Origin: a bacterium
GTDB taxonomy: Bacteria; B130-G9
DNA length: 43,189 nt
Reading direction: 5' to 3'
Assembly: GCA_035527515.1 (NCBI GenBank)
Contig: DATLAJ010000091.1
Coordinates: 1-43,189 of the forward strand
A program made the position numbers and the translations under genes. A model generated the notes under the pieces. The model did no database searches. It worked only from the letters and a program-made list of their open reading frames with translations, and had not been told where the DNA came from. Within the stretch, counting starts at the first letter, position 1; every line of letters starts with the position of its first letter. Shown here piece by piece: positions 9,583 to 38,493 of the stretch.

Positions 9583-10653
9583 TCAAACGTGAAACCTAAA
9601 CTCAATGATGTCGCCATCCGCGACGACGTAGTCCTTGCCCTCGAGGCGGTTCAACTTCTGCGCCTTGACCTCGCGCATAGAGTCAGCCTTCACGTAGTCA
9701 TCGAAGGCGATGACCTCCGCCCGTATGAACCCACGGGCCATATCCGTGTGGACTGTGCCAGCGGCTTTGATGGCCGTCGTGCCTGCCCTAAGCGGCCACG
9801 CCCGGACCTCATCGTTGCCGATTGTGAAGAAACAGATCGTCTCAGTGGCGTCGTATGACGCCCGAATGATGCGCTCCTTGGCCAGGTCGGCCAGCCCGGC
9901 GTCCTGCATGAACATCGCACGGTCTTCCTCCTCCAGCTCGAGCAGCTCCCGCTCCAATCTGGCGCACAGCGCGACTACGCTGGCGTATTGAGGCGCCAGA
10001 GGCTTGAAGTCGGCTGCAATTTTCTTTAGCCTTTCGGTCGAGGCATCCTTCTCGTCAACGTTCAGAACGATCAGAAGTGGCTTGGCCGTCAAGAACTCGA
10101 TGCTCTGAATGGCGGCCCGCTCCTCTGGGGAAAGCTCGAGCCGGGACAGCGGCGAGGCGCCTCTCAGGTGGTCGAGGCACTTGACGATAATCGCTCGCTC
10201 CCTCTCGAGGTCGTCGGACTTGGCCTTTAGATAAATGACGTCGATTTTCTCGACGCGTCGCTCGCAGACAACGATGTCTGCCTCAAACATTCTCTCGACG
10301 GACACGGCGACGGCGCGCTTCAGGTCTATGGTCTGGAAGATGTATGGCACGTTCGGATTCTCGAATCCACGAACGACAAGCCCGAGCACCGAGGCGCCCT
10401 TGACGGCGTTCAGGCTTGGCCCGATGGCGTCCTCAGGGCTTGGTTCGTGCAGATACGGGTCGAAATACTCGATCTTGGCCTGGACTTCTCTGGACTTTGG
10501 GAAGTCCGCAAAAAGCCTGTCGAGTCGCTGATCAGGGACAGGGACGGCAGCCAGGTTGGTGGAATGGGCGTGTGCGTCGGACAGCAGCCCCGTTACCGCC
10601 TCAAAGACGCTGGTCTTACCGACCTTCGGGAAACCGCAAAGGCCTATGTTCAA
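9583..10653 (-). CDS. YchF/Obg-like P-loop ATPase, divergent, with C-terminal TGS (DUF933) domain
   Basis: 356 residues, close to the ~363 of YchF. The P-loop is GFPKVGKT (7-14). NVDE at 198-201 matches the NxxE motif that gives YchF its preference for ATP over GTP. The C-terminus (~270-356) is a good match to the YchF TGS domain, with HTDMARGFIRAEVI, FDDY and RLEGKDYVVADGD. The switch II motif DIAG of true YchF is absent: at its place (63-68) the sequence reads YFDPYL, and VKGAS resumes at 84. YchF proteins bind ribosomes and act in stress responses; this may be a paralogue with altered hydrolysis. Translation starts at TTG (10653), which overlaps the upstream stop as TTGA, with GAGGAGGT a few bases before it, so the two genes are probably translationally coupled. 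Confidence 0.85.
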   Translation of the reverse strand: MNIGLCGFPKVGKTSVFEAVTGLLSDAHAHSTNLAAVPVPDQRLDRLFADFPKSREVQAKIEYFDPYLHEPSPEDAIGPSLNAVKGASVLGLVVRGFENPNVPYIFQTIDLKRAVAVSVERMFEADIVVCERRVEKIDVIYLKAKSDDLERERAIIVKCLDHLRGASPLSRLELSPEERAAIQSIEFLTAKPLLIVLNVDEKDASTERLKKIAADFKPLAPQYASVVALCARLERELLELEEEDRAMFMQDAGLADLAKERIIRASYDATETICFFTIGNDEVRAWPLRAGTTAIKAAGTVHTDMARGFIRAEVIAFDDYVKADSMREVKAQKLNRLEGKDYVVADGDIIEFRFHV

Positions 10654-12014
10654 TTGGTTACCTCCTCTGAGTTTCGAGGTTGCTCGCGCGCTTGCGTCCT
10701 GTCAACAGAGGAGTCGTGGAGCGTGCTTGGCGGGTTGGCGATATTCCCCGAGCGAGGGACTTCAGCGCAGAAATATGGTAGCCCGATCCAGTTGACGAAA
10801 ACAACCAGCAGAAAGAACAGAACGCAGGCCAGAATGACGATGTGCTGCCTCTTGACACACGGCGGCTTATCGATCATGAGAGTCTGGACGACGTGGCGCA
10901 TTGTCTCCAGGAGCGTGCCGGCAGAATGCTTGCACAGGAAGCGTCCGCATGGGACGGAGATACCGTTGATCTGCACGAGCATAAGGTAGTATTTGGTCGA
11001 GGAGTCTGCGATGGCGGGAAAGGTATATGCTGCCGAGTATTGCCTCTTGTCGCCGCCCAGATAGACGGGCTCGCCCACCCTTATTGGGTCATAATCCCTG
11101 AGGTCAACGTCCACAAGCTGCGTCAAGGTGATCCCAAACGGAATCGGCAGCGGCTCGTCCTGCGCCCCGCAGTATTGAGCCTTGAACACCAGATCAAAAG
11201 GTTGCGATCGGTAGTTGATCCAGGCTTCGCCGTTGGGCTCGATGTTGTTACGGGCGGCCAAGACCCTTGGGGCGCTGCCAGGATCGCAATCTGGAGACGT
11301 GAAATAGAACCCGAAGGACCTGAACTTGGAGTCCTTGATAGGCTCGAACTCGAAGCTTACTCTCTGTTCCTGGCCGATACTGTTAACATCGATCTCTTCA
11401 GTGAAAAGATCGGTATCACGGTCATCCGCTGCAAAGAGGTGAAACATGAGCTTCCCACCTTTCGGATTCGGCCCGCAGCCAAGTGCCGCGGTTATCCGGC
11501 AGAGTCCGTTCTGTGTGGCCGCGAACATCTGGCCCGCTATATGAGCAAGAGGTGTCTTAGTCCCTTTGAATACGTTGCCCAGTAGGTCCTTTGTCTGAGT
11601 GACAATGGTTCGCTTGGAGTATTTCTTCTGGCAGACAGCGGCCGCCCAAAACAACGAGGCCGGACTCGCTTGGTGCGTGAGGTTGACATGTTCAGGCTTT
11701 TGGGGGAGTTCAAAGAGCTTGCATCTCACCTCCGGGGGGCCATGGCGAATCAACGGCGCAACAAGACGTCCGTCAACGGAGAAGGTGACCTTGAGGAGGT
11801 GGGAGTATTCCGATTGGAAGAGATGGCTGAGGTTTCCAGAGAGGTCTCGCGTCCACACAAATGCGGGCGGGCCATACAGGTCACGGCGCGGGTATGAAGC
11901 CCCGTCGAGCGTTATCATGGACGAGAATCCAAACGAAGAACGGAAAGCGACAAGCCCAACGACAATCGCCAGCGCTAGCGCCTCAGCTATCCAGACCCAT
12001 TTTTTCAGCTTCAC
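10650..12014 (-). CDS. Membrane-anchored protein of unknown function
   Basis: A 454-residue protein starting at GTG (12014); the ribosome-binding site is weak. There is one hydrophobic helix at residues 8-24 and a second strong one near 394-416 (HIVILACVLFFLLVVFVNWI). The ~370 residues between them would lie outside the cytoplasm. That region is beta-rich with scattered Cys and no family I recognise; LMFHLFAADD and FRSFGFYFTSPDCDPG suggest a jelly-roll-like fold, but this is a guess. The last ~40 residues are polar. It is the first gene of a two-gene minus-strand unit and its stop overlaps the TTG start of the YchF-like gene. It may be specific to this lineage. Confidence 0.75.
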   Translation of the reverse strand: MKLKKWVWIAEALALAIVVGLVAFRSSFGFSSMITLDGASYPRRDLYGPPAFVWTRDLSGNLSHLFQSEYSHLLKVTFSVDGRLVAPLIRHGPPEVRCKLFELPQKPEHVNLTHQASPASLFWAAAVCQKKYSKRTIVTQTKDLLGNVFKGTKTPLAHIAGQMFAATQNGLCRITAALGCGPNPKGGKLMFHLFAADDRDTDLFTEEIDVNSIGQEQRVSFEFEPIKDSKFRSFGFYFTSPDCDPGSAPRVLAARNNIEPNGEAWINYRSQPFDLVFKAQYCGAQDEPLPIPFGITLTQLVDVDLRDYDPIRVGEPVYLGGDKRQYSAAYTFPAIADSSTKYYLMLVQINGISVPCGRFLCKHSAGTLLETMRHVVQTLMIDKPPCVKRQHIVILACVLFFLLVVFVNWIGLPYFCAEVPRSGNIANPPSTLHDSSVDRTQAREQPRNSEEVTN

Positions 12015-12440
12015 GATGACAGCAAGCTTACGGCTGTAAATAACATGCCTATTTACAAAATCTTGATGGACTCATCACTAATACCAATACATGTTGCAAG
12101 CCGGTCAAATCTACCACAATCCAATAGAGCAGCGCTTGAGAATCTGCCGGGAGATTTCTTGAACATTCCGGATAGAAGACTAATCTTAAGATGTGATGAA
12201 AGCAGCAAGAATTGCTACAAGTTTTCGTTTGGACTTCTTTCGCGTTTTTGCCCATATCGTTGATAAACCACATATTGCTAGTCATGGCATAGACTGGCTT
12301 TGGGGGCGCAGCTCTAGCCTACACAAGCCCTAGCCGCTCACACACGGGGGGTGCGGGGCATCTTCTTTGGTTGAAGTCATGCTTTTAGTTTCTGGTCTTA
12401 CATCTCAGCGATCGTTTCCCAGGTTGGAGGTCTTGCGCAA
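12015..12440. other. A+T-richer region between divergent genes, next to dnaA
   Basis: This 426-bp gap separates the minus-strand membrane gene from dnaA. It looks richer in A+T than its surroundings, mainly 12040-12290. It holds an 8-bp inverted repeat (12035-12057) and the palindrome ATCTTAAGAT (12183-12192). I found no exact TTATCCACA DnaA box on either strand by eye. The dnaA ribosome-binding site is GGAGG at 12426-12430, before the GTG. Two short open frames (12045-12263 +, 12049-12285 -) lack support. It could be a replication origin, but the sequence does not prove it. Confidence 0.35.
12035..12057. promoter_or_regulatory. Operator-like inverted repeat
   Basis: TGTAAATA (12035-12042) and TATTTACA (12050-12057) are perfect inverted repeats with a 7-nt centre. 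They lie 21 bp before the GTG of the minus-strand membrane gene and could bind a dimeric regulator of that operon. No regulator is known. Confidence 0.35.
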
Positions 12441-13844
12441 GTGAACAACGTGTGGGTCCGCGTCCTTCGGCGCGTAAAGCGGACGATCAACCGGCACAGC
12501 TTTGAGACATGGATCAAGAGCATGCACTACGAGGGATACAGGAAGGGCGTGCTGCGCCTCACGGTTCTGAACGACTCGCATCGGAATTGGGTCAACGAGA
12601 ACTATCTCTCTTTGATAAGGGTGGCCGCAGGGGATATATGCAGTCGCGATGTCGAGGTCCAGATAAGCCTCAACGGGGTGCACGACGTTGAGGAGAAGGC
12701 GCCGGCTGTGCAGAGGTCTTTGCACAAAGCGCCCGTTGCTCACAGCTTGAGGCAGGGGCCGGCACTTCCTCATACCAATGGCGATTTCACGTTTGACAAT
12801 TATGTCTTGGGCGAGTGCAACGAGTTTGCTCACGCGGCCTGCGTCAAGGTGGCTCAGAGCCCTTCAAAAGCATATAATCCGTTGTTCATATATGGCCAGG
12901 ACGGGGTTGGCAAGACGCATTTGCTGTCCGCGATAACACACTACATCCGCCATAATCATCAAGCTCTGTCGGTCCTTTACGAGACGGCCGAGGATTTCAC
13001 TAACGACCTGGTCGACTCGATTGGCAGCAGACAGATGCCCGGTTTCAGGGCCAGATACCGCAATCAGGATGTCTTCCTGATCGATGATATACAGTTCATT
13101 CAGGCCAAGAAGACGACGCAGGAGTCGCTACTGCATACCTTCAACGCGCTCTACGATCTCGGTCGTCAGATAGTTGTTTCCTGCGATCGGCATCCCGAAG
13201 GCCTTCAATTTGTTCAAGACAAGCTGCTCTCAAGGCTCGGATCGGGGCTGGTCGTTGACCTTGCACCGCCTGACCTCGAGGTCAGAGTGAGGATTCTTCT
13301 GAAGAAGGCTGAGAAGGTGAGTTTCGATCTGCCTGAAGAGATCGCCTACTACATGGCCAGCAGAGCACCTTCCAATGTGCGCCAGCTAGAGAGCTTGCTG
13401 ACACGAGTGAAGGCCTATACCGAGTGGAAGCACCTCGACCTTACGCTCGAATCGGCAAAGGCGGCTCTTAACGGATACGGGAAACTGAACTCCCAAGAAA
13501 AGCTCTCGACCGAAGTTATTCAGAACAAGGTCGCCCTGTATTATGGGCTTAGGACTGATGACCTTCTCTCCCGCAGCAGAGCCAGGAACATTGTCCGAGC
13601 GAGGCAGGTGGCGATGTTTCTCTGCCGTGAGCTGCTCAGGGAGTCGTATCCAAGCATAGGTAGGAGCTTCTCTGGGATGAGCCATGCGGCCGCGATGCAC
13701 TCTTGCGGCCGCGTTGTCTTCATGCTCAAGAGCGACCCGCGTTTCGTGCAGACTATCGATGTGCTCAAGAAAGAGCTTGCCGACTATGGGCCCAGACCCA
13801 AGGACGGAGGACAACTTTGCGTTCAGTTTGACGCCAAGACATAG
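12441..13844 (+). CDS. dnaA: Chromosomal replication initiator DnaA, with atypical DNA-binding signature
   Basis: 467 residues with full DnaA architecture. Domain I (1-~85) has VWVRVLRRVK and SFETWIKSM. A variable linker runs to ~112. The AAA+ core (~113-340) starts at FTFDNYVLGECNEFAHAA and has Walker A GQDGVGKT (152-159), Walker B VFLIDDIQF, a sensor-1-like SCDRHP, box VII LLSRLGSGL with its Arg finger, and sensor-2-region SNVRQLE. Domain IV (~355-467) has RARQVAMFLCRELL. The signature loop, FGGRDHTTV in typical DnaA, reads FSGMSHAAA at 410-418, so of R-D-H-T-T only the His remains. In E. coli these residues contact the DnaA box, so binding specificity is probably changed. DnaA opens oriC and loads helicase. 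The start is GTG with GGAGG 10 nt upstream. None of dnaN, recF, gyrB or rpmH is adjacent. A paralogue of a canonical DnaA elsewhere is possible. Confidence 0.9.
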   Translation: MNNVWVRVLRRVKRTINRHSFETWIKSMHYEGYRKGVLRLTVLNDSHRNWVNENYLSLIRVAAGDICSRDVEVQISLNGVHDVEEKAPAVQRSLHKAPVAHSLRQGPALPHTNGDFTFDNYVLGECNEFAHAACVKVAQSPSKAYNPLFIYGQDGVGKTHLLSAITHYIRHNHQALSVLYETAEDFTNDLVDSIGSRQMPGFRARYRNQDVFLIDDIQFIQAKKTTQESLLHTFNALYDLGRQIVVSCDRHPEGLQFVQDKLLSRLGSGLVVDLAPPDLEVRVRILLKKAEKVSFDLPEEIAYYMASRAPSNVRQLESLLTRVKAYTEWKHLDLTLESAKAALNGYGKLNSQEKLSTEVIQNKVALYYGLRTDDLLSRSRARNIVRARQVAMFLCRELLRESYPSIGRSFSGMSHAAAMHSCGRVVFMLKSDPRFVQTIDVLKKELADYGPRPKDGGQLCVQFDAKT

Positions 13845-14143: not shown

Positions 14144-14199
14144 AATGTGCAAAAGCCTAGAACAACTCATCGCTATGAACAACGCGTAGGAGGCTCTGT

Positions 14200-25410: not shown

Positions 25411-26364
25411 ATGAGGGAGCCTTTTGGGGATATTCATTGTCCAGTTCTGGTCGATGAGGTTTTGGAGAACCTCCGGCCTGTAACAGGCAAGGGCATCTTC
25501 CTCGATGCAACCGTAGGTTTGGGTGGCCATGCGCAGGCTGTTCTCGAGCGCTTTCCCTCTGCCTCAGTTGTGGGGATTGATATCGACAGCGAAGCACTTG
25601 CGCTTTGCAAGAGGCGCCTCGAGCGTTATGGAGAGAGATTCATGGCGATTAGGGGTTCCTACGGGGATTTGGGCGATCTTCTTTCTGAGGCTGGTATCGG
25701 GACTGTGGACTCAATTCTGATGGACACCGGGCTCTCTAGTTATGATATTGGGACGGCAGCGCGAGGCTTCAGCTTCATGCTCGATGGCCCGCTCGACATG
25801 CGTTACAGCCGCAGCTCGCAGCTCGCATCGGCAAGAGACCTCATCAATCGTGAAAACGTAAGAGAACTTCGCAAGATACTGCGTGATTTTGGCGACGTTC
25901 CATTCGCAGGCCGACTGGCCGCCGCTATCGTCGAGGCGCGAGGGAAGACGGCGATCAGGACCACCGGCGAGCTGGCTGCGGTCGTGAGGCGCTCGATTGG
26001 GCGCCGGTTGGGGCACGGCAAGGTTGAGAGTTTTCTTGCGAAGGTGTTTCAGGCGTTCCGGATTGCGGTCAACCGCGAGCTGGATGTGCTCGATGCGGGC
26101 TTGCAGCAGAGTATTGCCGCGCTTGCCAGCGGGGGTCGCCTGTTGGTGGTCTGCTATGAATCGCTCAGCCACAGGTTGACCAAGCGGGTGTTCCGGGAGC
26201 ACGAGAGGGGCTACGTTCGCCCGGAGGATGCTGCCATGGGGACGTTCGAGCCAAGTGCGGAGATTCGGATAGTCAACAGGAAGGCGATTGGAGCATCGGC
26301 GTCCGAGGTTGCTAGAAACATTCGGAGTCGGAGTGGGGGACTTAGGATTGCGGAGCGTCTTTAG
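25411..26364 (+). CDS. rsmH: 16S rRNA (cytosine-1402 N4)-methyltransferase
   Basis: RsmH (MraW) methylates C1402 of 16S rRNA in the decoding centre using S-adenosylmethionine. The 317-residue protein has HCPVLVDEVLENLRP at the start, SAM-binding DATVGLGGHAQAVL (~33-46) and GIDIDSEAL. RGFSFMLDGPLDMRYS (~117-132) and VFQAFRIAVNREL (~211-223) follow. The usual SFHSLEDR motif is CYESLSHR here and the usual DLGVSS is DTGLSS, so the protein is more divergent than average, but the catalytic framework is intact. The ATG follows CGGAGGGG. The ftsL ATG comes immediately after its stop codon. Confidence 0.95.
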   Translation: MREPFGDIHCPVLVDEVLENLRPVTGKGIFLDATVGLGGHAQAVLERFPSASVVGIDIDSEALALCKRRLERYGERFMAIRGSYGDLGDLLSEAGIGTVDSILMDTGLSSYDIGTAARGFSFMLDGPLDMRYSRSSQLASARDLINRENVRELRKILRDFGDVPFAGRLAAAIVEARGKTAIRTTGELAAVVRRSIGRRLGHGKVESFLAKVFQAFRIAVNRELDVLDAGLQQSIAALASGGRLLVVCYESLSHRLTKRVFREHERGYVRPEDAAMGTFEPSAEIRIVNRKAIGASASEVARNIRSRSGGLRIAERL

Positions 26365-26691
26365 ATGAGAGGCGAGGCCAGGTTTAACGATACGATGTTT
26401 TATTTATTTACAATCGGCATCCTTCTTGCCAGCGCGCTCTTCTATCTCTGCCAGAGCTTTCGCATCATGAACCTCAAGTGGGAGATATCTGGCCTCAAGT
26501 CCCAGTATCAAAGCCTCGCACGTAGCGGGGATGGCTTGAAGGTGAGGCTCGCGGGATTGAACGATCTTCCGGAGTTGGAGAAGAGGGCAATAAGGCTGGG
26601 CTTCGTTCATCCCAAGCCCGGTGAGATGCTGATCTTACACAAAGAGGACCTAAACGATGGGGCGACGAGGGTTGCTAGTCATAAACGGTAG
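26365..26691 (+). CDS. ftsL: FtsL-like cell-division membrane protein
   Basis: A 108-residue bitopic protein: short polar N-terminus, one transmembrane helix (~11-30, MFYLFTIGILLASALFYLC) and an extracytoplasmic coiled-coil-like part (LKWEISGLKSQYQSL, ~37-51). A segment like the FtsL/DivIC tail follows (LPELEKRAIRLGFVHPKPGEM, ~68-88). FtsL works with FtsQ and FtsB to activate FtsW-FtsI. Sequence similarity in this family is weak, and the call rests on topology and its place between rsmH and ftsI. It starts directly after the rsmH stop and overlaps ftsI by 35 bp. Confidence 0.85.
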   Translation: MRGEARFNDTMFYLFTIGILLASALFYLCQSFRIMNLKWEISGLKSQYQSLARSGDGLKVRLAGLNDLPELEKRAIRLGFVHPKPGEMLILHKEDLNDGATRVASHKR

Positions 26692-28537
26692 TAAGCGTCG
26701 CGGGCCGCAAGCGGGGCAGATAGTCCACACTCGGCAGCCAAGGAAGCTCGATTCGCAGGCGTTGCGGATGCTGGCCGTGCTGTTGGTGTTCATTTTGCTT
26801 GCGGGTCTTAGTGTGTTCAGACTCCTTTGGATTCAGGTGTTGAAACACGACGATTACATGAGAATCGCCGAGTCGCTTCACACCAGAAGGCTGGCGCTCC
26901 CGGCAAAGCGGGGCAAGATACTTGACTGTCGTCTCCGGACGCTTGCGGGGAGCCGGGAGACGCTGTCCTTTTGGGCATACGCACAAGAGTTGACGGATGC
27001 CGACAAGAAAATCGCCAGGAGCCGGCTTTCTGGCTTTCCGGGCATTTCAGAAGGAAGTCTGGATGAGGCGTTTGGCGAGAAGGCGCGGTTAGTCTGGCTG
27101 CGTCGCTTCTGCGACGAGAATACTGCCCTGCGGCTTGAGAGCCTTCAGGTGCCCGGGGTCGGCTATACAGTTGAGCATAGGCGCTATTACACTTGTGATT
27201 GGGTGAGCAACATCGTCGGGTTCGTCAACGCTTTGGGCGATGCCATTGAGGGGGTGGAGCACAAGTTTGACAAGCTGCTGTCGGGCAAACCTGGCACGGT
27301 GGTAATAAATCCCTACGTGCGTTTGGAGGGTGCGCCGCTAACACAAGGGGTGTTGGAGCCTCCCGTAAACGGCAATAACATTGTTCTCACGATTGATAGC
27401 GCCATCCAATACATTCTCTACAGGCATCTTCGCGAGGCCTGTCAATCATGGAACGCGCCGCTTGCCCTCGGCCTGATTATGGACTCCAAAACGGGCGCGA
27501 TACTGGGGATGGCGACTTATCCAACTTATTCCTCATCTAATCATAGACAGAGCTATACTGCTCACGACCTCGGCCATATTCCGGCCTATTTGGCCAACCT
27601 TTGTGAGCCCGGAGGCCTTTACAAGGCACGCTGCCTCACCGACCTTTTTGAGCCGGGCTCCCTTCTTAAGGTATTCGTGGTCGCTGCAGCGCTGGACATG
27701 AACAAGGTGAGGCGCTACGAGACGTTTTTCTGCGAGAACGGTTCGTTCAAGGTGGGGAAGTCGAGGATCTCCGACTGGCATCCATTTGGCGAGCTGACCG
27801 TGGAGGATATTCTGGCCGAATCGAGCAACATTGGGATGTCCAAGATCGGGATGCGGCTCACGCCTCGCCTGCTGCATGAGTACTTGATGCGTTTCGGGTT
27901 TCTGAACAAGCCGGGAGTGGGCCTGTTCGGAGAACCCGCGCCACGGGTCAAGGCACTGTCCCAGTGGGACGAGGAATACACCTGTTTCGTGTCGTTTGGA
28001 CAGGGGCTCTCACTGTCGGCAGTTTCCCTTGTGTCGGCCATGTCCGCGATTGCCAATGACGGAATGCTCATGCAGCCCTATTTAGTGGCGGCCGTTCAGG
28101 ACTCCAGCGGAAACATCGTCTATCAGACTCGTCCGAGAGTTATCAGAAGAGTCATCAGGGCAAGCACGGCGAGGACAGTCGTGAGCATGATGCGCAGGGT
28201 CGTAACTGAGGGCTCGGGACACAGGGCAGCTGTTGACGGGGTGTCTGTCTGTGGGAAGACGGGCACTGCACAGGTGTTCGATCATCAGACGGGGCACTAT
28301 TCGCACGAAGACCTCATCACCTCCTTCATAGGTTTCGCGCCGGCTGAAGACCCGCAAATCGCGCTACTCATAAGCGTCTTCAGCCCGCGACACGCACAGC
28401 GAGAGATATGGGGGAGCACTGTTGCTGCCCCCATTTTCTCCGCTGTCGCAAGCCACGTCCTTGCCTACCTTGAGGCCAGAAAGTCGCCGTTTCTTCAGAT
28501 GGCCAAGGACAAGCGATTGGAGGCAGCATCAAGTTGA
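26657..28537 (+). CDS. ftsI: Septal penicillin-binding protein (FtsI/PBP3-type transpeptidase)
   Basis: 626 residues: cytoplasmic tail, one membrane helix (~37-60), a dimerisation domain starting near KRGKILDCRLRTLA (84-97), a linker with VEHRRYYTCDWVSNIVGFVN, and the transpeptidase domain from ~240. The catalytic motifs are complete: SLLK with nucleophile Ser335 and Lys338 (in FEPGSLLKVF), SSN 389-391, and KTG 534-536 in VCGKTGTAQV. There are no PASTA repeats. It crosslinks septal peptidoglycan with FtsW. The start overlaps ftsL by 35 bp, and the stop overlaps the TTG start of murE as TTGA. Confidence 0.95.
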   Translation: MGRRGLLVINGSKRRGPQAGQIVHTRQPRKLDSQALRMLAVLLVFILLAGLSVFRLLWIQVLKHDDYMRIAESLHTRRLALPAKRGKILDCRLRTLAGSRETLSFWAYAQELTDADKKIARSRLSGFPGISEGSLDEAFGEKARLVWLRRFCDENTALRLESLQVPGVGYTVEHRRYYTCDWVSNIVGFVNALGDAIEGVEHKFDKLLSGKPGTVVINPYVRLEGAPLTQGVLEPPVNGNNIVLTIDSAIQYILYRHLREACQSWNAPLALGLIMDSKTGAILGMATYPTYSSSNHRQSYTAHDLGHIPAYLANLCEPGGLYKARCLTDLFEPGSLLKVFVVAAALDMNKVRRYETFFCENGSFKVGKSRISDWHPFGELTVEDILAESSNIGMSKIGMRLTPRLLHEYLMRFGFLNKPGVGLFGEPAPRVKALSQWDEEYTCFVSFGQGLSLSAVSLVSAMSAIANDGMLMQPYLVAAVQDSSGNIVYQTRPRVIRRVIRASTARTVVSMMRRVVTEGSGHRAAVDGVSVCGKTGTAQVFDHQTGHYSHEDLITSFIGFAPAEDPQIALLISVFSPRHAQREIWGSTVAAPIFSAVASHVLAYLEARKSPFLQMAKDKRLEAASS

Positions 28538-30060
28538 GGCTCAGCGAAGTCTTAAGGGCGGTTGTAGTCCGGGCCACGAAGGGCGAGATGAGCCCGGAGG
28601 TCAGGGAGCTATGCTCTTCGTCCCAGAGCTCCTCACGTTCCACGGCTTTTTTCGCCGTTAGGGGCTTCACAAAAGACGGACATGACTTCATCCCTGATGT
28701 GATCAAAAGGGGCGCCGCAGCAGTTGTGCTTGACAGAGAGGATGTCTTTGAGCGACTCAGCTCGGATGTTTCTGAAGGCTGGCCACCACTCGTTCTCGTT
28801 GAAGATGCACGCTCCGCCCTCGCTGTCGCTGCGTCCAACCTGAACGGCAACCCCAGCGAGCACATGAAGCTCGTCGGCATCGTCGGCACAAATGGTAAGA
28901 CCAGCGTCTCGTACCTTCTGGAGTCGGTCCTCGGAATGCTCGCTGGGGTCGGCGTGATCGGGACGATCAGCTATCGCTACCCTGGCAGCGAAGACATCGC
29001 CTCGCTGACAACGCCGGACCCGGTCCGGCTTCAGCAATTGCTGGCGGAGATGCACAAGCGAGGCGTTGAGACCGTCATTCTGGAGACCTCGTCACATGGC
29101 CTCGTGCAGGGGCGAGTGGACGGGTGCAGGTTCGCCCTCGGGGTATTCACGAACATCACGTCTGAGCACCTCGACTTTCACGGCACTTTCGAGAACTACC
29201 TAGCCGCCAAGCTCAGCTTCTTCGAGCGTCATCTTGATCCGACGAGGACGGCAGAAGCCGCAGCTGTGATAAACCTCGATGACAAGTATTCGGCCCAATT
29301 CCTGGCCGCATCGAGGGTGAAGACCAGAACCTACTCGCTCGAAAACGACGCCGCCGACTTCCTTGCCAGGCAAATACGGCTATCTCAGGATGGCACGGAC
29401 TTCGAGGTCAGAACCCCTGACGCCACGCTTCCCATCAAGACTGCGCTCATCGGGGCACACTCGGTCCAAAACTGCCTCGCCGCGATCGCAGCCTCTGCCG
29501 CTCTTGGAGCGAGCTCGGAGCAGATGGTCTCGGGTATCGCGTCGCTCAAGGGAGTCCCAGGACGGTTCGAGAAGGTCTCCTGCGGACAGGATTTTCTCGT
29601 GGTGGTAGATTTCGCTCACACGCCAGACGCCATCGCCAAGACGCTCGAAACGGCGCGGCAGCTCGTGCGCGGCCGTATAGTCTCCGTGCTGGGCGCTGGC
29701 GGCGACCGCGACGCGGCCAAGCGCGGCCCAATGGGGCAAATGGCGGCGAAGTTGAGCGACGTCTGTGTCATCACCTCCGATAATCCACGGACGGAGGACC
29801 CGCTCAAGATCATACAACAGGTCGAGCGAGGCGCGCGGTCCATGGGTTCGGCTAAGGTCGTTGTCGAACCTGACCGGCGTGACGCCATAGGATTTGCTCT
29901 CGGCCTAGCGGCCCCGGGAGACGCCGTCCTGATACTTGGCAAGGGGCATGAGACATATCAGATTGTAGGAACCACTCGGCATCCTTTTGATGACCGGACG
30001 GTGGCGCGAGAGCTTCTGGAGACGATGAGACACCCCATCAGGACCGGGAGAGCCCGATGA
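28534..30060 (+). CDS. murE: UDP-MurNAc-tripeptide synthetase, meso-diaminopimelate type
   Basis: MurE adds the third amino acid to UDP-MurNAc-dipeptide. The 508-residue Mur ligase has Walker A GTNGKTS (118-124), an ETSSHGL motif (184-190), the lysine normally carbamylated (Lys226 in YLAAKLSFF) and the C-terminal DNPR (416-419). DNPR is the signature of meso-diaminopimelate rather than lysine specificity, so a DAP-type peptidoglycan is predicted. TTSDPxx-like TTPDPVRLQ marks the UDP-substrate region. The start is TTG at 28534, with GGAGG ~11 nt upstream, and overlaps the ftsI stop. Its own stop overlaps the murF start as ATGA. Confidence 0.96.
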   Translation: MRLSEVLRAVVVRATKGEMSPEVRELCSSSQSSSRSTAFFAVRGFTKDGHDFIPDVIKRGAAAVVLDREDVFERLSSDVSEGWPPLVLVEDARSALAVAASNLNGNPSEHMKLVGIVGTNGKTSVSYLLESVLGMLAGVGVIGTISYRYPGSEDIASLTTPDPVRLQQLLAEMHKRGVETVILETSSHGLVQGRVDGCRFALGVFTNITSEHLDFHGTFENYLAAKLSFFERHLDPTRTAEAAAVINLDDKYSAQFLAASRVKTRTYSLENDAADFLARQIRLSQDGTDFEVRTPDATLPIKTALIGAHSVQNCLAAIAASAALGASSEQMVSGIASLKGVPGRFEKVSCGQDFLVVVDFAHTPDAIAKTLETARQLVRGRIVSVLGAGGDRDAAKRGPMGQMAAKLSDVCVITSDNPRTEDPLKIIQQVERGARSMGSAKVVVEPDRRDAIGFALGLAAPGDAVLILGKGHETYQIVGTTRHPFDDRTVARELLETMRHPIRTGRAR

Positions 30061-31505
30061 CGTCGCCGGTTCAGATACAGCAGCTGGCGAGAATCGTGGG
30101 CGGGCAGATGCTGTATCCGCCGCTTCACCCGATCTACGTGACGAGCTTCTCGATCGACACGCGCACCCTCAAGCAGGGGGATGTCTTTGTGGCGATCAAG
30201 GGCCCGCATTTCAACGGGAACGATTTCGTTGAGAAGGCGTTTCTGAAGGGAGCGTGCTGCGCGATTGTATCGAGGCTGAGGTGGCATCTAAAGGCCAAGC
30301 GCCAGGAGATAGCAGAGCTCGGGCCTGGCCCACTCATCGCGGTTTCGGACACCACCCAAGCCCTAGCCAAGCTCGGCACATATTTCCGCAGGAAGCTACG
30401 GGCCAAAGTCATAGCCGTTACCGGAAGCATCGGCAAGACTGCGACCAGGGAGATGCTCGCCGCAGTACTTGGCCGCTCCGGCAAGACCTATCAGTCTCGA
30501 AGCAACTACAACAACGTTTATGGGGTGCCGCTTTCGATCTTTGAGGCCAGACCGGATTGTGAATACCTCGTGGTGGAGCTCGGCATGAATGCTAAGGGCG
30601 AGATTGCCCAGCTCGCCGACATCTGTCAGCCTGATTACGGAGTGGTAACGAACGTATCCACGTGCCACACGGAGTTCTTCGAGTCGCTTGACGATGTGGC
30701 GGACACAAAGGCCGAGCTGTTCGAGAAGCTGCCCGAGAAAGGAGCTCTCTTTGTGAACGCTGACGATAGCCGGCTCGAGAGCCGGACCCATCTTGCCAAG
30801 TGCAAGGTTGTGGGATTCGGCCTTTCGGCGGGAGAGTTCAGGGGCGACAACCTCAGGTCGCTGGGGGAGAATGGCACAGCCTTCGAGGTGTTCTATGGCG
30901 GCGAGTCGCATTCGCTTAGGTGCCCTCTTTTGGGGGCGCACAACGTCAAGAATGCGCTGGCTGCCGTTGCGGTCGGCAGACATCTAGGCATGTCCTGGGA
31001 CGCGATCGTAGCGGGGCTTGCGGACACCAGTTCCCTTCCACATCGCGTCAATCTGGTTGGCAGTCGTGACGGGCGCCTTCGAGTGCTGGACGACTCCTAC
31101 AACTCATCGCCGGCGGCCGTTCGCGCGGCCATCGACACCTTGCTCGTGCTGCGTGGCGATGTTGACCCCGCAAGGTCAGTCATTCTCGTGCTTGGGGACA
31201 TGCTGGAGCTGGGTCGGCTATCTGAATCGGAACACTACAAAGTCGGGGTTTACGTCGGCTCGCGACCCATAGACCAGCTGTTTCTGCTGGGGCCGCTTTC
31301 TAAGCATACTGCAAGGGGGGCGTGCGATTCGGGGATGGCGCCCGAACGGATACATCACTGTCAGTCTATCTATGACCTAAAGAGCGCGCTCGACGAGGTG
31401 CAGGACGGCGCTTGGGTGCTTGTGAAGGGCTCCCGAGCCTGGGCATTGGACCGCCTCGTTGACAGGTTGTGCGGCGAATCACGCCAAAAGGTGCTGATCA
31501 GGTAA
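30057..31505 (+). CDS. murF: UDP-MurNAc-tripeptide-D-alanyl-D-alanine ligase
   Basis: MurF adds D-Ala-D-Ala to give the UDP-MurNAc-pentapeptide. The 482-residue protein has an N-terminal MurF domain (SIDTRTLKQGDVFVAIKG, 32-49) and Walker A GSIGKTAT (123-130). It continues with SNYNNVYGVPLSI, VVELGMNAKGEIAQL and a C-terminal domain with DDSYNSSPAAVRAAID (~343-358). The ATG lies in an ATGA overlap with murE, so the two are translationally coupled. Ddl, which makes the D-Ala-D-Ala substrate, is not in this window. Confidence 0.95.
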   Translation: MTSPVQIQQLARIVGGQMLYPPLHPIYVTSFSIDTRTLKQGDVFVAIKGPHFNGNDFVEKAFLKGACCAIVSRLRWHLKAKRQEIAELGPGPLIAVSDTTQALAKLGTYFRRKLRAKVIAVTGSIGKTATREMLAAVLGRSGKTYQSRSNYNNVYGVPLSIFEARPDCEYLVVELGMNAKGEIAQLADICQPDYGVVTNVSTCHTEFFESLDDVADTKAELFEKLPEKGALFVNADDSRLESRTHLAKCKVVGFGLSAGEFRGDNLRSLGENGTAFEVFYGGESHSLRCPLLGAHNVKNALAAVAVGRHLGMSWDAIVAGLADTSSLPHRVNLVGSRDGRLRVLDDSYNSSPAAVRAAIDTLLVLRGDVDPARSVILVLGDMLELGRLSESEHYKVGVYVGSRPIDQLFLLGPLSKHTARGACDSGMAPERIHHCQSIYDLKSALDEVQDGAWVLVKGSRAWALDRLVDRLCGESRQKVLIR

Positions 31506-31541
31506 CATGGTTAAGGGATCAATCGAGGGGAGATAGGCGAC

Positions 31542-32624
31542 TTGTTCTACCATCTCATTCTGCCGTTGCAAAGGTATTTCACGCCGCTGAACGTTTTCAG
31601 GTACATCACATTGCGAGGGGCAGGGGCCCTAGTAACCTCACTGTGCCTGTGTCTCATCATGGGACCATTTGTCATCCGCCGGCTCCAAAGGTGGGGCCTT
31701 ACGCAGTTCATACGCGACGATGGCCCTCGCGCACATCTTGCTAAGAAGGGCACGCCGACTGCAGGCGGCATCATGATCGTCCTCAGCGTCGTCATCTCCG
31801 TGCTGCTTTGGGCAGACCTCGGCAACATATATGTATGGATAACGGTCGGAGCACTCGTCACATACGGGCTTGTGGGGTTCGCCGACGATGTCCAGAAGAC
31901 GATTAGAAAAAGCTCTAAAGGGCTCTCGGCAAAGTCCAAAATAGCCCTCCAACTTGGCATTGCCCTGGCGGTCGGCATCGCACTCATCGCATTCTCCGGG
32001 GAGCACAACGCAACCTCTCTTCAGTTCCCCATCACCAAACATGTAACTCCGAATCTCGGTTACGCATATCTCGTGGTTGTGGCGCTCGTTCTCGTCGCCA
32101 CTACAAACGCTGTGAACCTAACAGACGGCCTCGACGGTCTCGCAACAGGCGTCTCGAGCATGACGATACTCACGCTTGGAGCGCTCGCCTACGTCGCCGG
32201 ACACAGCATACTTGCCAACTACCTGCACACGATGTTCATCCAAAACAGCGGCGAAGTATCGGTCGTCTGTCTCGGTCTGTTCGGGGCTGGCCTCGGTTTC
32301 CTCTGGTGGAACACATTCCCGGCGGAGGTCTTCATGGGCGACACGGGCTCCATGGCCATCGGAGGGGCAATCGGCACCGTGGCGCTCCTGTGCAAGCACG
32401 AATTTCTGCTGCCGATCCTCGGCGGAGTATTCGTAATTGAGGCTATCTCAGTGATCGTCCAGGTGATTGGTTTCAAGTCAACCGGCAAGAGGGTTTTCCG
32501 CATGGCCCCGTTTCATCATCACCTAGAGCTAAAGGGGTGGCACGAGGCAAAGGTGGTCTCAAGGATGCTGATAATCTCGTTCATTTTTAGTCTCATCGCT
32601 ATCGTTGTTGTTAAGGTCAAATGA
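31542..32624 (+). CDS. mraY: Phospho-N-acetylmuramoyl-pentapeptide transferase
   Basis: MraY moves phospho-MurNAc-pentapeptide to undecaprenyl phosphate to make lipid I. The 360-residue protein has about ten membrane helices. Its catalytic motifs are FADDVQK (~107-113) with the metal-binding Asp pair, NLTDGLDGLATG (~191-202), FMGDTGSMAIGG (~265-276) and the histidine-rich FHHHLELKGWHEAKVV loop (~325-340). Translation starts at TTG (31542), supported by GGGGAGA upstream and by the family start pattern FYHLILPL...LNVFRYITLRGAGA. The murD start lies just after its stop. Confidence 0.96.
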   Translation: MFYHLILPLQRYFTPLNVFRYITLRGAGALVTSLCLCLIMGPFVIRRLQRWGLTQFIRDDGPRAHLAKKGTPTAGGIMIVLSVVISVLLWADLGNIYVWITVGALVTYGLVGFADDVQKTIRKSSKGLSAKSKIALQLGIALAVGIALIAFSGEHNATSLQFPITKHVTPNLGYAYLVVVALVLVATTNAVNLTDGLDGLATGVSSMTILTLGALAYVAGHSILANYLHTMFIQNSGEVSVVCLGLFGAGLGFLWWNTFPAEVFMGDTGSMAIGGAIGTVALLCKHEFLLPILGGVFVIEAISVIVQVIGFKSTGKRVFRMAPFHHHLELKGWHEAKVVSRMLIISFIFSLIAIVVVKVK

Positions 32625-32634
32625 CACAGGGCTA

Positions 32635-34038
32635 ATGCGTTACAAGGGCAGTTTCAAGGGGAAAGACGTAGTTGTATTCGGCCTCGGTTCGTCGGGGCGT
32701 GCCGCGGCTCAGGTACTCATTGGCCTCGGCGCCAGAGTATCCGTTGTGGACCAGGGTGAAAGCCCGGACTTGAGGGAACACGCGGAGTCGCTCCGTCAGA
32801 TCGGTGCGAGGTGTTACCTGGGTATGGCCCCAGCCGAGGTCATGCGGTCTGCAAAGATGGTCGTTGTGAGTCCTGGCGTGCCGACCGCAATCGAGCCGCT
32901 CGAACAGGCGCGCAAGGCCGGCGCCTCGGTCATAGGGGAGCTTGAGCTGTCGTTCATGCTTTCAGACGCCGACTTCCTCGCGATCACCGGCACAAAGGGG
33001 AAATCGACCACTACACGGCTGCTACATCGAATACTAGCCGTCGCTGGGTTCGATGTGGTCGCTGGCGGGAATCTACCTGACGAGCCGTTGTGCGGCAAGG
33101 TTATGAGGCTTCTTTCAGGGGCCGCAGTTGTGGCGGAGGTCAGCAGCTTTCAGCTCGAGACAATTGTTACCTTCAGGCCCCGTGTCGCCTGCATCACCAA
33201 CCTGGGCGTTGACCACCTCGACCGCTACTCGAGCCTCGAGGAGTATCACGCTGCAAAGCTCCGCATCTTCGAGAATCAGGAGGCCAGCGATGTTCTCGTG
33301 CTCAATGCCGGGGACGCACGGCTTGTGGAGCTAGCGCGTGGGGTCGCCCGTTCTGTTGTATGGTTCGGCATGGGTACCCCCGATAAGCTGGACGGTGTGT
33401 TCCTGACGTCGGAGGAGATCATCTGCGTCCGCGAGGGCAAGAGTTCTCCGGTCCTTAAGCGCAAGGACATCACGCTACCCGGGCTTCATAACCTTGAAAA
33501 CGTGATGGCGGCGGCAGCGATGGCTATCGCTAGGCGAGTCCCGGTGGATGCGATAAGGGAGGCACTGGACGGGTTCAAACTTGCGCCTCACACACTCGAG
33601 GTCTTCGCCATGTTTGAGGGGATAACCTTCGTAGATGACTCCCACGCGACGAACACCCTAGCGGTTACGAAGGCGCTCGAGGCGTTCGAGGGGCCGATTA
33701 TCCTGATTGCTGGCGGGCGAGATAAGGGCTGCGACTGGGCAGAGATTCTCGAGGCAGCTAGGGGCAAGATCAAGACAGTCATAGCGATTGGTGAGGCAAG
33801 CTCGAGGATCGCGGCAGCGCTTGGCAAGGACCTCCCAGTGCTGCTTAACGTGGGTGGTGTTGCAGACATCGTTGCTCAAGCTGCGTCGCTCGCCGCTAGT
33901 GGCGACGTTGTTCTGTTGTCGCCGGGGTGCAGCAGCTTCGACATGTTCAAGGACTTTCGCGATCGAGGGAACAGGTTCAAGAAGGCTGTTCTCGATTATC
34001 TCGAGGGGAGGGGTCATGGCGTTAGCCAGGTCAGATAG
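32635..34038 (+). CDS. murD: UDP-N-acetylmuramoylalanine-D-glutamate ligase
   Basis: MurD adds D-Glu to UDP-MurNAc-L-Ala. From the ATG at 32635 it has 467 residues. The frame is open back to a TTG at 32605 inside mraY, but the Rossmann motif VVVFGLGSSGRAAA fits the later start. Walker A is GTKGKST (119-125); NLGVDHLDRY (189-198) and SPGCSSFDMFKDF near the C-terminus are typical. The usual HRxE...NDSKATN block reads HTLE (319-322) and DDSHATN (334-340), so an Arg and a Lys conserved in MurD are replaced. The Lys lies in the D-Glu site region of the E. coli enzyme. The fold and operon position support MurD despite this. It overlaps ftsW by 23 bp. Confidence 0.92.
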   Translation: MRYKGSFKGKDVVVFGLGSSGRAAAQVLIGLGARVSVVDQGESPDLREHAESLRQIGARCYLGMAPAEVMRSAKMVVVSPGVPTAIEPLEQARKAGASVIGELELSFMLSDADFLAITGTKGKSTTTRLLHRILAVAGFDVVAGGNLPDEPLCGKVMRLLSGAAVVAEVSSFQLETIVTFRPRVACITNLGVDHLDRYSSLEEYHAAKLRIFENQEASDVLVLNAGDARLVELARGVARSVVWFGMGTPDKLDGVFLTSEEIICVREGKSSPVLKRKDITLPGLHNLENVMAAAAMAIARRVPVDAIREALDGFKLAPHTLEVFAMFEGITFVDDSHATNTLAVTKALEAFEGPIILIAGGRDKGCDWAEILEAARGKIKTVIAIGEASSRIAAALGKDLPVLLNVGGVADIVAQAASLAASGDVVLLSPGCSSFDMFKDFRDRGNRFKKAVLDYLEGRGHGVSQVR

Positions 34039-35152
34039 CATCTCCCGTCGATTGATGGGTCTGGACGGGGTCATCTTGTTGCTTGTTGGCATCCTGCTAG
34101 CGGTGGGAATCATAACCGTCTTCAGCGCAACGATGCTTCGTTCTGCGAATGACTACGGCACCCCTTACTACTATATTGTAAGACACGGCATATCAGTCGT
34201 GTTTGCGCTGTTGATTGGACTTGCGGCGGCGACCGTGCGGCTAGAGACCCTGCCGAGGTTGAGCTGGCCACTTATACTTCTGACAATCGTGCTGCTTGCG
34301 CTCGTCAAGGTTCCGGGCGTGGGCGTGACCCACAGGGGTGCAACAAGATGGCTCGACCTTTACTACTTCACGTTCCAGCCGAGCGAGCTGGCCAAGTTCA
34401 CGCTTCCCCTGTTCCTTGCATCAATGATATGTGCCCAACAAAACAAGCGGCATGGTTCAGCAAGGGTCCTCACGATAACGCTGCCTGTCGTATTCCTCGT
34501 TCTTTTCCTCGTTGCTATTGAGCCTGATTACAGCACCACTGGCCTATTGGCGCTGGTCTGCGGCTCGATCTATTTCGTGGCCCAAAAGCGACTCAGACAT
34601 ATCGGAGCGCTCGCCGCTTTGGCGCTGTCAGCTGCCGCGTGTGCATATTATTACTCACATCACTTCAAGGACAGAGTGGATGGTTTTGCGTTCTATCTGT
34701 TGGACCCCACAAACATCTCCTGGCATCTCAAGCAAGCCTTCACCGCTATGGGCTCGGGTGGGCTGTTTGGTATGGGCCTTGGTAAGGGCATGCAAAAGCA
34801 TCTCTTGCTTGCCGAGAGCTTCAATGACTTCGCCTTCGCGTCGCTCGCGGAGGACGGTGGGTTCGTGGCAGCAGTCATAGTTATAGCCCTCTTTCTCACG
34901 CTTACTAGCAGAGCCTTGATGCTCAGCATGTCGCTGGACATCCACTTCGCAAGGCTTCTGGGCTTCGGCCTTGCGACAAGCCTCGGGCTTCAGAGCTTCA
35001 TGAACATCGCCGTTGTTCTGGGGCTTATGCCCACGACTGGTATCAGCTTGCCCTTCGTAAGTTACGGTGGGAGCGGGTTGCTAGCAAACATGATAACGGT
35101 GGGCCTCTTGCTGTCGGTCATCAGAAGTCGCGCAGAAGGAAAGCGAAAATGA
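34016..35152 (+). CDS. ftsW: SEDS-family septal glycosyltransferase FtsW
   Basis: FtsW polymerises lipid II at the septum together with FtsI. The 378-residue protein starts at the ATG at 34016, which follows GGGGAGGGG; the open frame begins upstream inside murD but that part is not FtsW-like. About ten membrane helices are visible. SEDS motifs are GATRWLDLYYFTFQPSELAKF (~108-128), ATMGSGGLFGMGLGKGMQK-like FTAMGSGGLFGMG and FAFASLAEDGGF. The C-terminal loop TGISLPFVSYGGSGLLANM follows. Its stop overlaps the murC start (ATGA), which leaves no room for murG, usually found between these two genes. Confidence 0.95.
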   Translation: MALARSDSISRRLMGLDGVILLLVGILLAVGIITVFSATMLRSANDYGTPYYYIVRHGISVVFALLIGLAAATVRLETLPRLSWPLILLTIVLLALVKVPGVGVTHRGATRWLDLYYFTFQPSELAKFTLPLFLASMICAQQNKRHGSARVLTITLPVVFLVLFLVAIEPDYSTTGLLALVCGSIYFVAQKRLRHIGALAALALSAAACAYYYSHHFKDRVDGFAFYLLDPTNISWHLKQAFTAMGSGGLFGMGLGKGMQKHLLLAESFNDFAFASLAEDGGFVAAVIVIALFLTLTSRALMLSMSLDIHFARLLGFGLATSLGLQSFMNIAVVLGLMPTTGISLPFVSYGGSGLLANMITVGLLLSVIRSRAEGKRK

Positions 35153-36555
35153 TGTTCGCAGGGATCAAGAAAATCCATTTTGTCGGAATTGGCGGCAGCG
35201 GAATGAGCAGCATTGCCGAAGTGTTGCTCAGGCTTAACTACGAGGTCTCTGGCTCCGATATCGAGGATAGCGACCTGCTCCACCGGCTCTCGAACCACGG
35301 CGCGAGGATATCCATACCCCACGCAGCGGCCAATGTCGCTGGCTCCGATCTGGTTGTCTTCTCAAATGCGATCGCGAGAGATAATCCTGAGCTCGTTGCG
35401 GCAAGAAAGGCCAGCATCCCCATCATACCGCGAGCGGAGATGCTTGCCGGGCTGATGCGGATGAACAAGTGCGGCATCGCGGTGGCCGGGACCCACGGCA
35501 AGACATCGACTGCGAGCATGATCGCCGAGGTCCTTAAAACGGCTAATCTTGACCCGACAGTCGTGATCGGTGGCATCGTCAGCGACGTGGGCAGCGGTGG
35601 CCGGCTGGGCGCTGGGGACGTCCTGGTAGCCGAGGTGTGCGAATCTGACGGCACAATACTCAAGGTCTCCCCGACGATTGGCGTCATAACCTCGCTTGAG
35701 CGAGAACACATGAACCACTACGCAAGCGAGGAGGAGCTCTTCAGCACCTTCGTGGCATTCGCCAACGAGGTCCCGTTCTATGGGACGATTATCGTGTGCC
35801 TCGATCAGCCGAACCTCAAGGCGCTCATCCCAAGGATCAAACGCCGGCTGGTTACCTATGGTCTTAGTGCCGAGGCCGACCTCATGGCCCAGGATATGGC
35901 CTTCGAGAGCTTCGTGAGTCGTTTTGATGTTTACAGGCGGTCTGGCGGAGGGCGTCAGCGGTTGGGCCGCATCGAGATTCCAACGCCCGGGATGCTTAGC
36001 ATCTATAACGCCCTGGCTGCAACTGCTGTTGGGCTGGAGCTCGGTATCGATTTCGACGTCATCAGAAAGTCGCTTGCGAAGTTCGTCCGCCCCAAGAGGC
36101 GCTTCGAGCTCAAGGGCATGGTGCATGACATAATGGTGATCGTTGACTATGGGCACCACCCAACTGAGATAAGGGAGACGCTCAAGGCGGCAAAATTAGG
36201 CTGGCAAAGAAGGCTCCTGGTCGCTTTCCAACCGCATCGCTTCACAAGAACACAGGACCTTCTTAAACGATTCTTCACCGCGTTTGGGGATGCCGACTTC
36301 CTGATTATCACCTCGATCTATCCGGCGGGAGAGAAGCCAATTAAGGGGGTCAGCGCGCGGCTCATTCTTGAGGGCGTGAGGCGAGCGGGGCACAGCTCGG
36401 CGCATTTTGTCAAGGAGATGACCCAAGCGGCCCAGCGCCTCGTGAACGAGGCGCGGCCGGGGGACATGATCATCATCTTGGGGGCAGGGGACATCTACAA
36501 GATAGGCGAGGTCGTTCTTAGTGGACTTCAGCAGAGATTTGGGGGGGAGGGCTGA
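35149..36555 (+). CDS. murC: UDP-N-acetylmuramate-L-alanine ligase
   Basis: MurC adds L-Ala to UDP-MurNAc, the first step of stem-peptide assembly. 468 residues, with an N-terminal Rossmann motif HFVGIGGSGMSSIAEVL (10-26) and Walker A GTHGKTST (114-121). EVCESDGT replaces the common EADESDGS, and HMNHY follows as the metal/ATP loop. The C-terminal domain has VDYGHHPTEIRETL and QPHRFTRTQDL, both diagnostic of MurC. Two ATG codons (35149 and 35152) are adjacent; the first overlaps the ftsW stop. The last base is shared with the murB ATG. Confidence 0.95.
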   Translation: MMFAGIKKIHFVGIGGSGMSSIAEVLLRLNYEVSGSDIEDSDLLHRLSNHGARISIPHAAANVAGSDLVVFSNAIARDNPELVAARKASIPIIPRAEMLAGLMRMNKCGIAVAGTHGKTSTASMIAEVLKTANLDPTVVIGGIVSDVGSGGRLGAGDVLVAEVCESDGTILKVSPTIGVITSLEREHMNHYASEEELFSTFVAFANEVPFYGTIIVCLDQPNLKALIPRIKRRLVTYGLSAEADLMAQDMAFESFVSRFDVYRRSGGGRQRLGRIEIPTPGMLSIYNALAATAVGLELGIDFDVIRKSLAKFVRPKRRFELKGMVHDIMVIVDYGHHPTEIRETLKAAKLGWQRRLLVAFQPHRFTRTQDLLKRFFTAFGDADFLIITSIYPAGEKPIKGVSARLILEGVRRAGHSSAHFVKEMTQAAQRLVNEARPGDMIIILGAGDIYKIGEVVLSGLQQRFGGEG

Positions 36556-37502
36556 TGGCGCAGGCAAGCATCGGGGCAGCAGGTTGGAGAGAGAATCTGT
36601 CCGGGCTATGCACCCAGGTGGGGTGCCATCCCATCTGGGATGAGCCACTGAGCATGCACACGTCCTTCGGGGTTGGCGGGCCGGCCGATGGATTTGTCGA
36701 GCCTGCAACGGTTGAGCAGTTGGCGGCGCTCGGCGAGTTCTGTGGGGCCTACTCGGTGCCGCTTTTCATACTTGGCAACGGGACAAACGTGATTGTAAAC
36801 GACAGGGGCTTCCGAGGGGTCGTAGTGACGCTGAAGAGGCTTGAACACGAGGCCAACGCGACGACCGATGGAGAGTTTATCCGCGCCGGCAGACCCCTCG
36901 CCGCCCTTGTTAGCTCTACTGTCAAAAAAGGCCTTTCGGGCCTAGAGCCCTTGACGGACATCCCAGGCACTGTGGGAGGCGCTGTGTTTCTGAACGCGGG
37001 GGCGTTCGGGCGTTCGGTCTGGGACTGCCTCGAGAGGGTCTGGCTCATGTTCGGGGATGGCGGCATTGAGGCTTTCCAAAGCTCCGACTTCCAGTCGTCC
37101 TATCGCGATTCAGGCATCATCCCGGGCGAGATAGTGCTTGGAGCGACGTTTCGACTGCAGGAGTGCGATCCCAACGAGGCAGCCGAGGCGGTTCGGGGTT
37201 ACTCACAGCGCCGGGCTGAATCGCAACCGCTCTCTCACAAGAGCGCCGGATGCGTATTCAAGAATCCCGCCGGCCTTAGCGCCGGAGAGCTCATCGAAAA
37301 GGCAGGGCTGAAGGGGCGTAGCGTTGGCTCGGCAAGGATATCGAATAAGCACGGCAATTTCATCCTTAATGAAGGTAGAGGGTTGGCGGCGGACATCCTG
37401 TCGTTGATTAGGCTTGTCAGGGATGAGGTCAAGAGATCGACCGGGGTGGTGCTCACAACCGAGGTGCAGGTCCTTGGCGAATATGGGTTGATGGAGGTTT
37501 GA
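36555..37502 (+). CDS. murB: UDP-N-acetylenolpyruvoylglucosamine reductase
   Basis: MurB reduces UDP-GlcNAc-enolpyruvate to UDP-MurNAc with FAD and NADPH. 315 residues. FAD-binding motifs are FILGNGTNVIV (71-81) and DIPGTVGGAVFLNAGAFG (135-152). The catalytic block SAGCVFKNP (230-238) carries Cys233 where E. coli has the proton-donating Ser; Cys at this place is, as far as I recall, seen in some other MurB proteins. The conserved acidic residue is Glu303 in TTEVQVLG. SSYRDS (181-186) without the extra Tyr-loop insert marks the shorter type II enzyme. ddl, often between murB and ftsQ, is absent. Confidence 0.95.
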   Translation: MAQASIGAAGWRENLSGLCTQVGCHPIWDEPLSMHTSFGVGGPADGFVEPATVEQLAALGEFCGAYSVPLFILGNGTNVIVNDRGFRGVVVTLKRLEHEANATTDGEFIRAGRPLAALVSSTVKKGLSGLEPLTDIPGTVGGAVFLNAGAFGRSVWDCLERVWLMFGDGGIEAFQSSDFQSSYRDSGIIPGEIVLGATFRLQECDPNEAAEAVRGYSQRRAESQPLSHKSAGCVFKNPAGLSAGELIEKAGLKGRSVGSARISNKHGNFILNEGRGLAADILSLIRLVRDEVKRSTGVVLTTEVQVLGEYGLMEV

Positions 37503-37546
37503 GGCTGTGTCTATTGGGGTCAGAAACGAACTCGTAGAAGGCGGAA

Positions 37547-37622
37547 GGATGAAGGATGAAGGATGAAGGCGAACTGACAACTGACAACGGGCAACCGATG
37601 ACTGGCGACTGCCAACTCGCAA
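37547..37622. repeat. Heptamer short tandem repeats upstream of ftsQ
   Basis: GGATGAA is repeated exactly three times (37547-37567). After GGCGAA come seven 7-bp units in register (37574-37622): CTGACAA twice, then CGGGCAA, CCGATGA, CTGGCGA, CTGCCAA and CTCGCAA. The last unit runs into the ftsQ ribosome-binding site AAGGTGAT. Heptameric short tandem repeats of this kind are known from cyanobacteria and other bacteria. They fill most of the 129-bp murB-ftsQ gap, the longest gap between mraZ and ftsZ. Confidence 0.75.
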
Positions 37623-37631
37623 GGTGATTAG

Positions 37632-38477: not shown

Positions 38478-38493
38478 GAGGATTGGAGGGAGA

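Follow-up and report, generated by a model that had tools for sequence, protein, structure and literature searches.

The sole DnaA of Candidatus Coatesbacteria carries altered DNA-reading residues and probably recognizes its origin by a different DNA word

Few bacterial protein-DNA pairs are as strongly conserved as the DnaA signature and its 9-mer box, and tools for origin prediction depend on this box. A 43,189-bp contig of a genome from the little-studied Candidatus Coatesbacteria (GenBank assembly GCA_035527515.1, contig DATLAJ010000091.1; the whole contig is referred to as the window) encodes a DnaA protein in which this signature is altered. The locus raises the question of whether the protein is the replication initiator of its lineage and, if so, which DNA word it reads. 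The gene and the parts of its product that matter here are the following:

12441 to 13844, plus strand: dnaA, 467 amino acids with a GTG start, comprising domains I, III and IV
13512 to 13715, plus strand: DnaA domain IV helix-turn-helix (Bac_DnaA_C, PF08299; 86.6 bits, E 3.7e-24)
13578 to 13580, plus strand: codon of Arg380, equivalent to E. coli R399, the minor-groove reader of 5'-TTA; kept in 4/4 species
13668 to 13694, plus strand: FSGMSHAAA replacing FGGRDHTTV (residues 410-418; turn and N-terminus of the recognition helix)

With regard to its overall architecture, the protein is a regular DnaA. The Pfam families PF11638, PF00308 and PF08299 (DnaA N-terminal domain, Bac_DnaA ATPase and Bac_DnaA_C) all scored above cut-off in this one protein, and with 444 bits it also exceeded the cut-off of 344 for the DnaA equivalog model TIGR00362. 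Walker A and B, the arginine finger and sensor 2 are present, and the corresponding residues G155, G157, K158, T159, D215, D216, R265 and R314 are invariant in the alignment. An AlphaFold2 model had a mean pLDDT (predicted local distance difference test) score of 82, and its top PDB matches were DnaA structures. Thus, a preliminary description of the window, made from the nucleotide sequence alone, was right to recognize domains I, III and IV together with intact ATPase motifs. Because these motifs are intact, ATP binding, oligomerization and origin unwinding would be expected to proceed as in other DnaAs.

In domain IV, FGGRDHTTV is the aligned counterpart of the window loop in both B. subtilis and E. 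coli DnaA; the exchange to FSGMSHAAA, which the preliminary description had placed within 13653-13715, was confirmed at residues 410-418. Of the RDHTT signature, which reads MSHAA here, only the histidine is kept. In the structural model, residues 410-414 are predicted to form the turn and residues 415-431 the recognition helix, which begins with H415, the equivalent of E. coli H434; the changed residues would therefore sit at the N-terminus of this helix. Six base-contacting residues have been reported for DnaA, namely R399, P423, D433, H434, T435 and H439 (E. coli numbering, used for all positions from 399 to 439; PMC7561715). R399, P423, H434 and H439 (4/6) are kept in the Coatesbacteria DnaAs, and two (2/6) are lost, D433 being replaced by serine or cysteine and T435 by alanine. 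Two further changes, T436 to alanine and R432 to methionine or leucine, lie outside the six-contact list. The earlier wording that the signature is "largely replaced" thus holds for the nine-residue motif and does not hold for the base contacts. The helix starting at position 434 has been assigned to the 3' TnCACA of the box and R399 to its 5'-TTA, and a T435M exchange is defective in box binding (PMC5742627).

The rarity of these changes was assessed in an alignment of 126 distinct domain IV sequences, in which 144 rows, partly redundant, were not from Coatesbacteria. Among these rows, position 433 is aspartate in 138/144, position 435 is threonine or serine in 140/144 and position 436 is threonine or serine in all 144, while H434 is invariant throughout the alignment. 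The combinations S-H-A-A and C-H-A-A occurred in Coatesbacteria only. With a profile built from the four Coatesbacteria domain IVs, these four scored 155-165 bits, compared to 86 bits for the best protein of the other genomes among the 386 searched.

The window genome (G000) is a metagenome-assembled genome of 3.47 Mb in 183 contigs with a completeness of 95.6%, and three related Coatesbacteria genomes (G001 to G003) are 83-94% complete. Exactly one DnaA was found in each of these four genomes of the phylum. The loops read FSGMSHAAA (twice), FSGMCHAAV and FSGLCHAAA, the same loop type in four species of three genera, so that aligning domain IV across relatives, as the preliminary description had suggested, revealed a lineage-wide trait. 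The alanine codons differ synonymously between the species (GCG, GCT, GCC and GCA), strongly indicating that the alanines are under selection; a loop common to four species with synonymous changes is neither a sequencing error nor a product of decay. We concluded that the substitutions at D433, T435 and T436 are fixed across the lineage and selected.

These data also bear on the suggestion in the preliminary description that the protein is a paralogue with another role while the true initiator is encoded elsewhere. As had been stated there, dnaN and rpmH do not adjoin dnaA, a fact in favor of this explanation: dnaN lies on contig C146, rpmH-rnpA-yidC on C164, and rsmG-parA-parB with a perfect parS on C23. 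A second dnaA was searched for; the only Bac_DnaA_C protein in the window genome is the window DnaA, and none of the four genomes yielded a second one. The other Bac_DnaA ATPase match of the window genome, on contig C88, was rejected as a second DnaA since it is the IstB helper of an IS21 element. Taken together with the equivalog match, these results nearly refute the paralogue explanation, which we regard as highly improbable; the window dnaA is a vertical core gene.

To what extent the genome contains the canonical box was determined by counting. TTATNCACA occurred at 41 sites in the 3.47-Mb genome compared to 40 sites for the reversed control, and the nearest pair on the same contig in the whole assembly was 7.2 kb apart. 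For the degenerate box TTWTNCACA, no two sites were closer than 2.4 kb in 609 kb of sampled contigs, and the window itself contains only two lone sites, at 3203 and at 14146, the latter being a single site downstream of dnaA:

14146 to 14154, minus strand: TTTTGCACA (0.05 expected in two 800-bp flanks)

We compared this pattern with dnaA loci of other bacteria (L035-L045, L241-L260 and further loci), counting TTWTNCACA within 800 bp of dnaA against an expectation from base composition; the sample is small and the statistics ignore phylogeny. Among 42 loci with D433-H434, at least one box was found in 35 and at least two in 32, and altogether 154 boxes were observed where 6 were expected. In contrast, none of the four lineages with serine, cysteine or lysine at 433 (Coatesbacteria and three unrelated loci) had two or more boxes near dnaA (Fisher p 0.006 for the contrast in box pairs, counted by lineage and uncorrected for phylogeny). 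The conservative exchange of aspartate to asparagine gave a mixed picture of 0, 1 and 3 boxes, and locus L074, which keeps D433 in a DHTT motif, has no boxes near dnaA. Within the limits of this small and phylogenetically uncorrected sample, the comparison supports a link between residue 433 and the canonical box. Judged by its domains and its single copy, the window protein is a DnaA; it departs from the family in its RDHTT signature and, on this incomplete assembly, in the canonical-box test.

Two base-reading residues are lost and the standard box is nowhere clustered in the assembled genome; Coatesbacteria therefore probably use another DNA word to label their replication origin. We consider it rather likely that the protein is the main DnaA initiator throughout the lineage and that its recognition helix reads a 3' half-box that is altered or relaxed. 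The different box postulated in the preliminary description is thereby supported by the sole DnaA, the fixed changes, the unenriched TTATNCACA and the link across lineages, the altered specificity being what we infer from them. According to this model, domain IV would insert its recognition helix into the major groove and Arg380 into the minor groove. Reading of the 5' TTA by R399 and the contacts by P423, H434 and H439 would be retained, the 3' half of the box (TnCACA) would be altered or relaxed to match the changes at D433, T435, T436 and R432, and oriC as well as DnaA-regulated promoters would carry the altered box in place of TTWTNCACA.

Several points weigh against this model. With four of six base contacts kept and the methyl group retained by alanine, the protein could still bind a box close to the canonical one. 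The assembly is incomplete and fragmented, and a canonical oriC could be missing from it or broken at a contig end. No alternative box array emerged from the search described below, which covered 0.61 Mb of sampled contigs and the region upstream of dnaA. The correlation between residue and box is small and uncorrected for phylogeny, and some lineages with D433, L074 among them, likewise have no boxes nearby, perhaps because their oriC lies elsewhere. The kept contacts, the incomplete and fragmented assembly and the lineages with D433 that have no boxes nearby would fit a protein that still reads a near-canonical box, with R399, P423, H434 and H439 sufficing, alanine methyls replacing those of threonine, and a TTWTNCACA oriC located where the assembly is broken or has a gap. 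This explanation is at odds with the binding defect of T435M in E. coli, with the lack of any TTATNCACA pair within 7 kb in 3.47 Mb, with the fixation of the substitutions across genera, and with the lack of box pairs in the lineages that have lost D433 to serine, cysteine or lysine. We regard it as unlikely, though as the most serious competitor of an altered or relaxed 3' half-box.

Both the origin and a new box were searched for directly. GC skew was scanned on contigs C91, C146, C23, C164, C114, C57 and others (609 kb), and candidate sign changes were located on C146 at about 125 kb, in the vicinity of dnaN and folD, and on C23 at about 15.6 kb, near rsmG-parA-parB-parS. Enriched 9-mers at the skew minimum had been proposed as a signpost; no repeated 9-mer array occurred at the sign changes on C146 and C23, and no group of at least four TTWT sites with the same 3' 4-mer within 500 bp was present on the sampled contigs. 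Thus, neither oriC nor the new box was located in this sample or upstream of dnaA.

Two candidates from this search were rejected. A cluster of CGGCTACCCA on C146 was dismissed as a box array since it is an element resembling repetitive extragenic palindromes and bacterial interspersed mosaic elements (REP/BIME), situated beside an open reading frame (ORF) for a REP-associated, transposase-like protein. This ORF (G000:C146:61480-62700; L149:1480-2700) lies between inverted CGGCTACCCA/TGGGTAGCCG repeats, and further REP/BIME-like copies of CGGCTACCCA/TGGGTAGCCG occur near the start of C146 and at 66.5 kb. A TTATCCACA site beside parS on C23 was discarded as a lead, as it is not shared by the other genera. 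Each of the four Coatesbacteria genomes has exactly one perfect parS (TGTTTCACGTGAAACA), always just upstream of parA-parB (G000:C23:18316, G001:C232:3554, G002:C52:25234 and G003:C315:3679), and rsmG is immediately next to it in G000, G001 and G002 and not far from it in G003.

The region upstream of dnaA was analyzed separately. Its relevant features are:

12015 to 12440, no strand assigned: intergenic region upstream of dnaA, 426 bp, AT-rich (45.5% GC), no box array
12109 to 12119, plus strand: ATCTACCACAA, containing ACCACA and differing from the Thermotoga box ACCTACCAC at one position; kept in the sister species, a weak lead
12263 to 12273, plus strand: ATAAACCACAT, a second conserved site containing ACCACA, a weak lead

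The region is 90% identical to that of the sister species, compared to 73% at four-fold sites of dnaA, and is therefore constrained; one stretch of 50 bp is 100% identical between the sister species. No 9-mer recurred above shuffles in the 426 bp, no Rfam match was obtained, and exact TTATCCACA is absent, just as the preliminary description had reported. The lack of a recurrent 9-mer and of any newly found box is consistent with a duplex specificity that has been weakened rather than changed. In that case, the origin would be found mainly via ATP-dependent oligomerization and recognition of single strands by domain III (DnaA-trio/DNA-unwinding element), together with a loose reading of the AT-rich minor groove by R399. 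That the domain III motifs are intact while the recognition residues became small (serine or cysteine, alanine, alanine) also fits; we nevertheless judge this explanation to be improbable.

Both ACCACA-containing sites are absent from G002. They touch on a further explanation, that the protein reads the Thermotoga-type box ACCTACCAC by a convergently similar SH-x-x loop. T. maritima DnaA, with the loop FNR-SHPVVV, does read ACCTACCAC (PMC10316083), and one ATCTACCAC is present in the conserved region upstream of dnaA. G002 does not share that upstream site, and none of the four genomes shows enrichment or clustering of ACCTACCAC (in G000, 15 sites versus 26 control sites). A Thermotoga-type box is accordingly very improbable.

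T. maritima DnaA is nonetheless the nearest known parallel of the Coatesbacteria protein. Its residues D433, T435 and T436 are likewise replaced (S-H-P-V), it keeps H434 and an arginine contact, and its box, AAACCTACCACC / ACCTACCAC, is non-canonical. In contrast to Thermotoga, the Coatesbacteria DnaAs have S/C-H-A-A in an ungapped turn and retain P423 and H439, and their genomes show no enrichment of the Thermotoga box. With the canonical DnaAs of E. coli and B. subtilis, which read TTATNCACA, they share the domain order I-III-IV, Walker A/B, the arginine finger, sensor 2, the fold of domain IV, the contacts R399, P423, H434 and H439, and the single copy; they differ in having M/L-S/C-H-A-A instead of RDHTT and, in the window genome, no TTATNCACA enrichment or clusters. 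Lineage-specific drift of the box is likewise seen in H. pylori, Caulobacter and actinobacteria, whose published boxes depart from TTATCCACA by one or two bases (PMC4285127). GafA has an N-terminal DnaA-like domain with a DnaA-type helix-turn-helix and altered contact residues (PMC9638019), but it is a gene transfer agent transcription factor and not an initiator, whereas the window protein is a complete DnaA.

The genes next to dnaA in the window are:

10650 to 12014, minus strand: ORF for a conserved, membrane-anchored protein of 454 amino acids without a Pfam match, divergent from dnaA
9583 to 10653, minus strand: YchF-type GTPase, the next synteny partner (family assigned on the G002 orthologue)

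The former overlaps the start of the GTPase gene, and both neighbor dnaA in three genomes. Downstream of dnaA, at a distance of about 11 kb, is a dcw division cluster (25411-40982; mraW to ftsZ, from the reading of ORFs), which is an unusual neighborhood for dnaA. On the dnaA contig of G003, a sigma-70 region-4 protein (L049:1333-1746) and a terminase-like ORF of 650 amino acids without a Pfam match (L049:1990-3942) are located just downstream of dnaA and possibly represent an integrated phage remnant.

It is about an even call whether the broader picture holds in full, namely that this lineage has re-coded its DnaA-oriC recognition to a box unlike both TTWTNCACA and that of Thermotoga, as a second, independent case of co-evolution between initiator and origin, and that the identity of position 433 predicts loss of the canonical box in several unrelated lineages. 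A sole initiator with changed reading residues would show that the pair of DnaA and its box can be rewritten. Besides Thermotoga, it provides a second reference point for working out how the 3' half-box is specified by D433, T435 and T436, and the association across lineages between a lost D433 and lost boxes makes the question of co-evolution testable. For Coatesbacteria themselves, origin prediction with TTATNCACA may fail.
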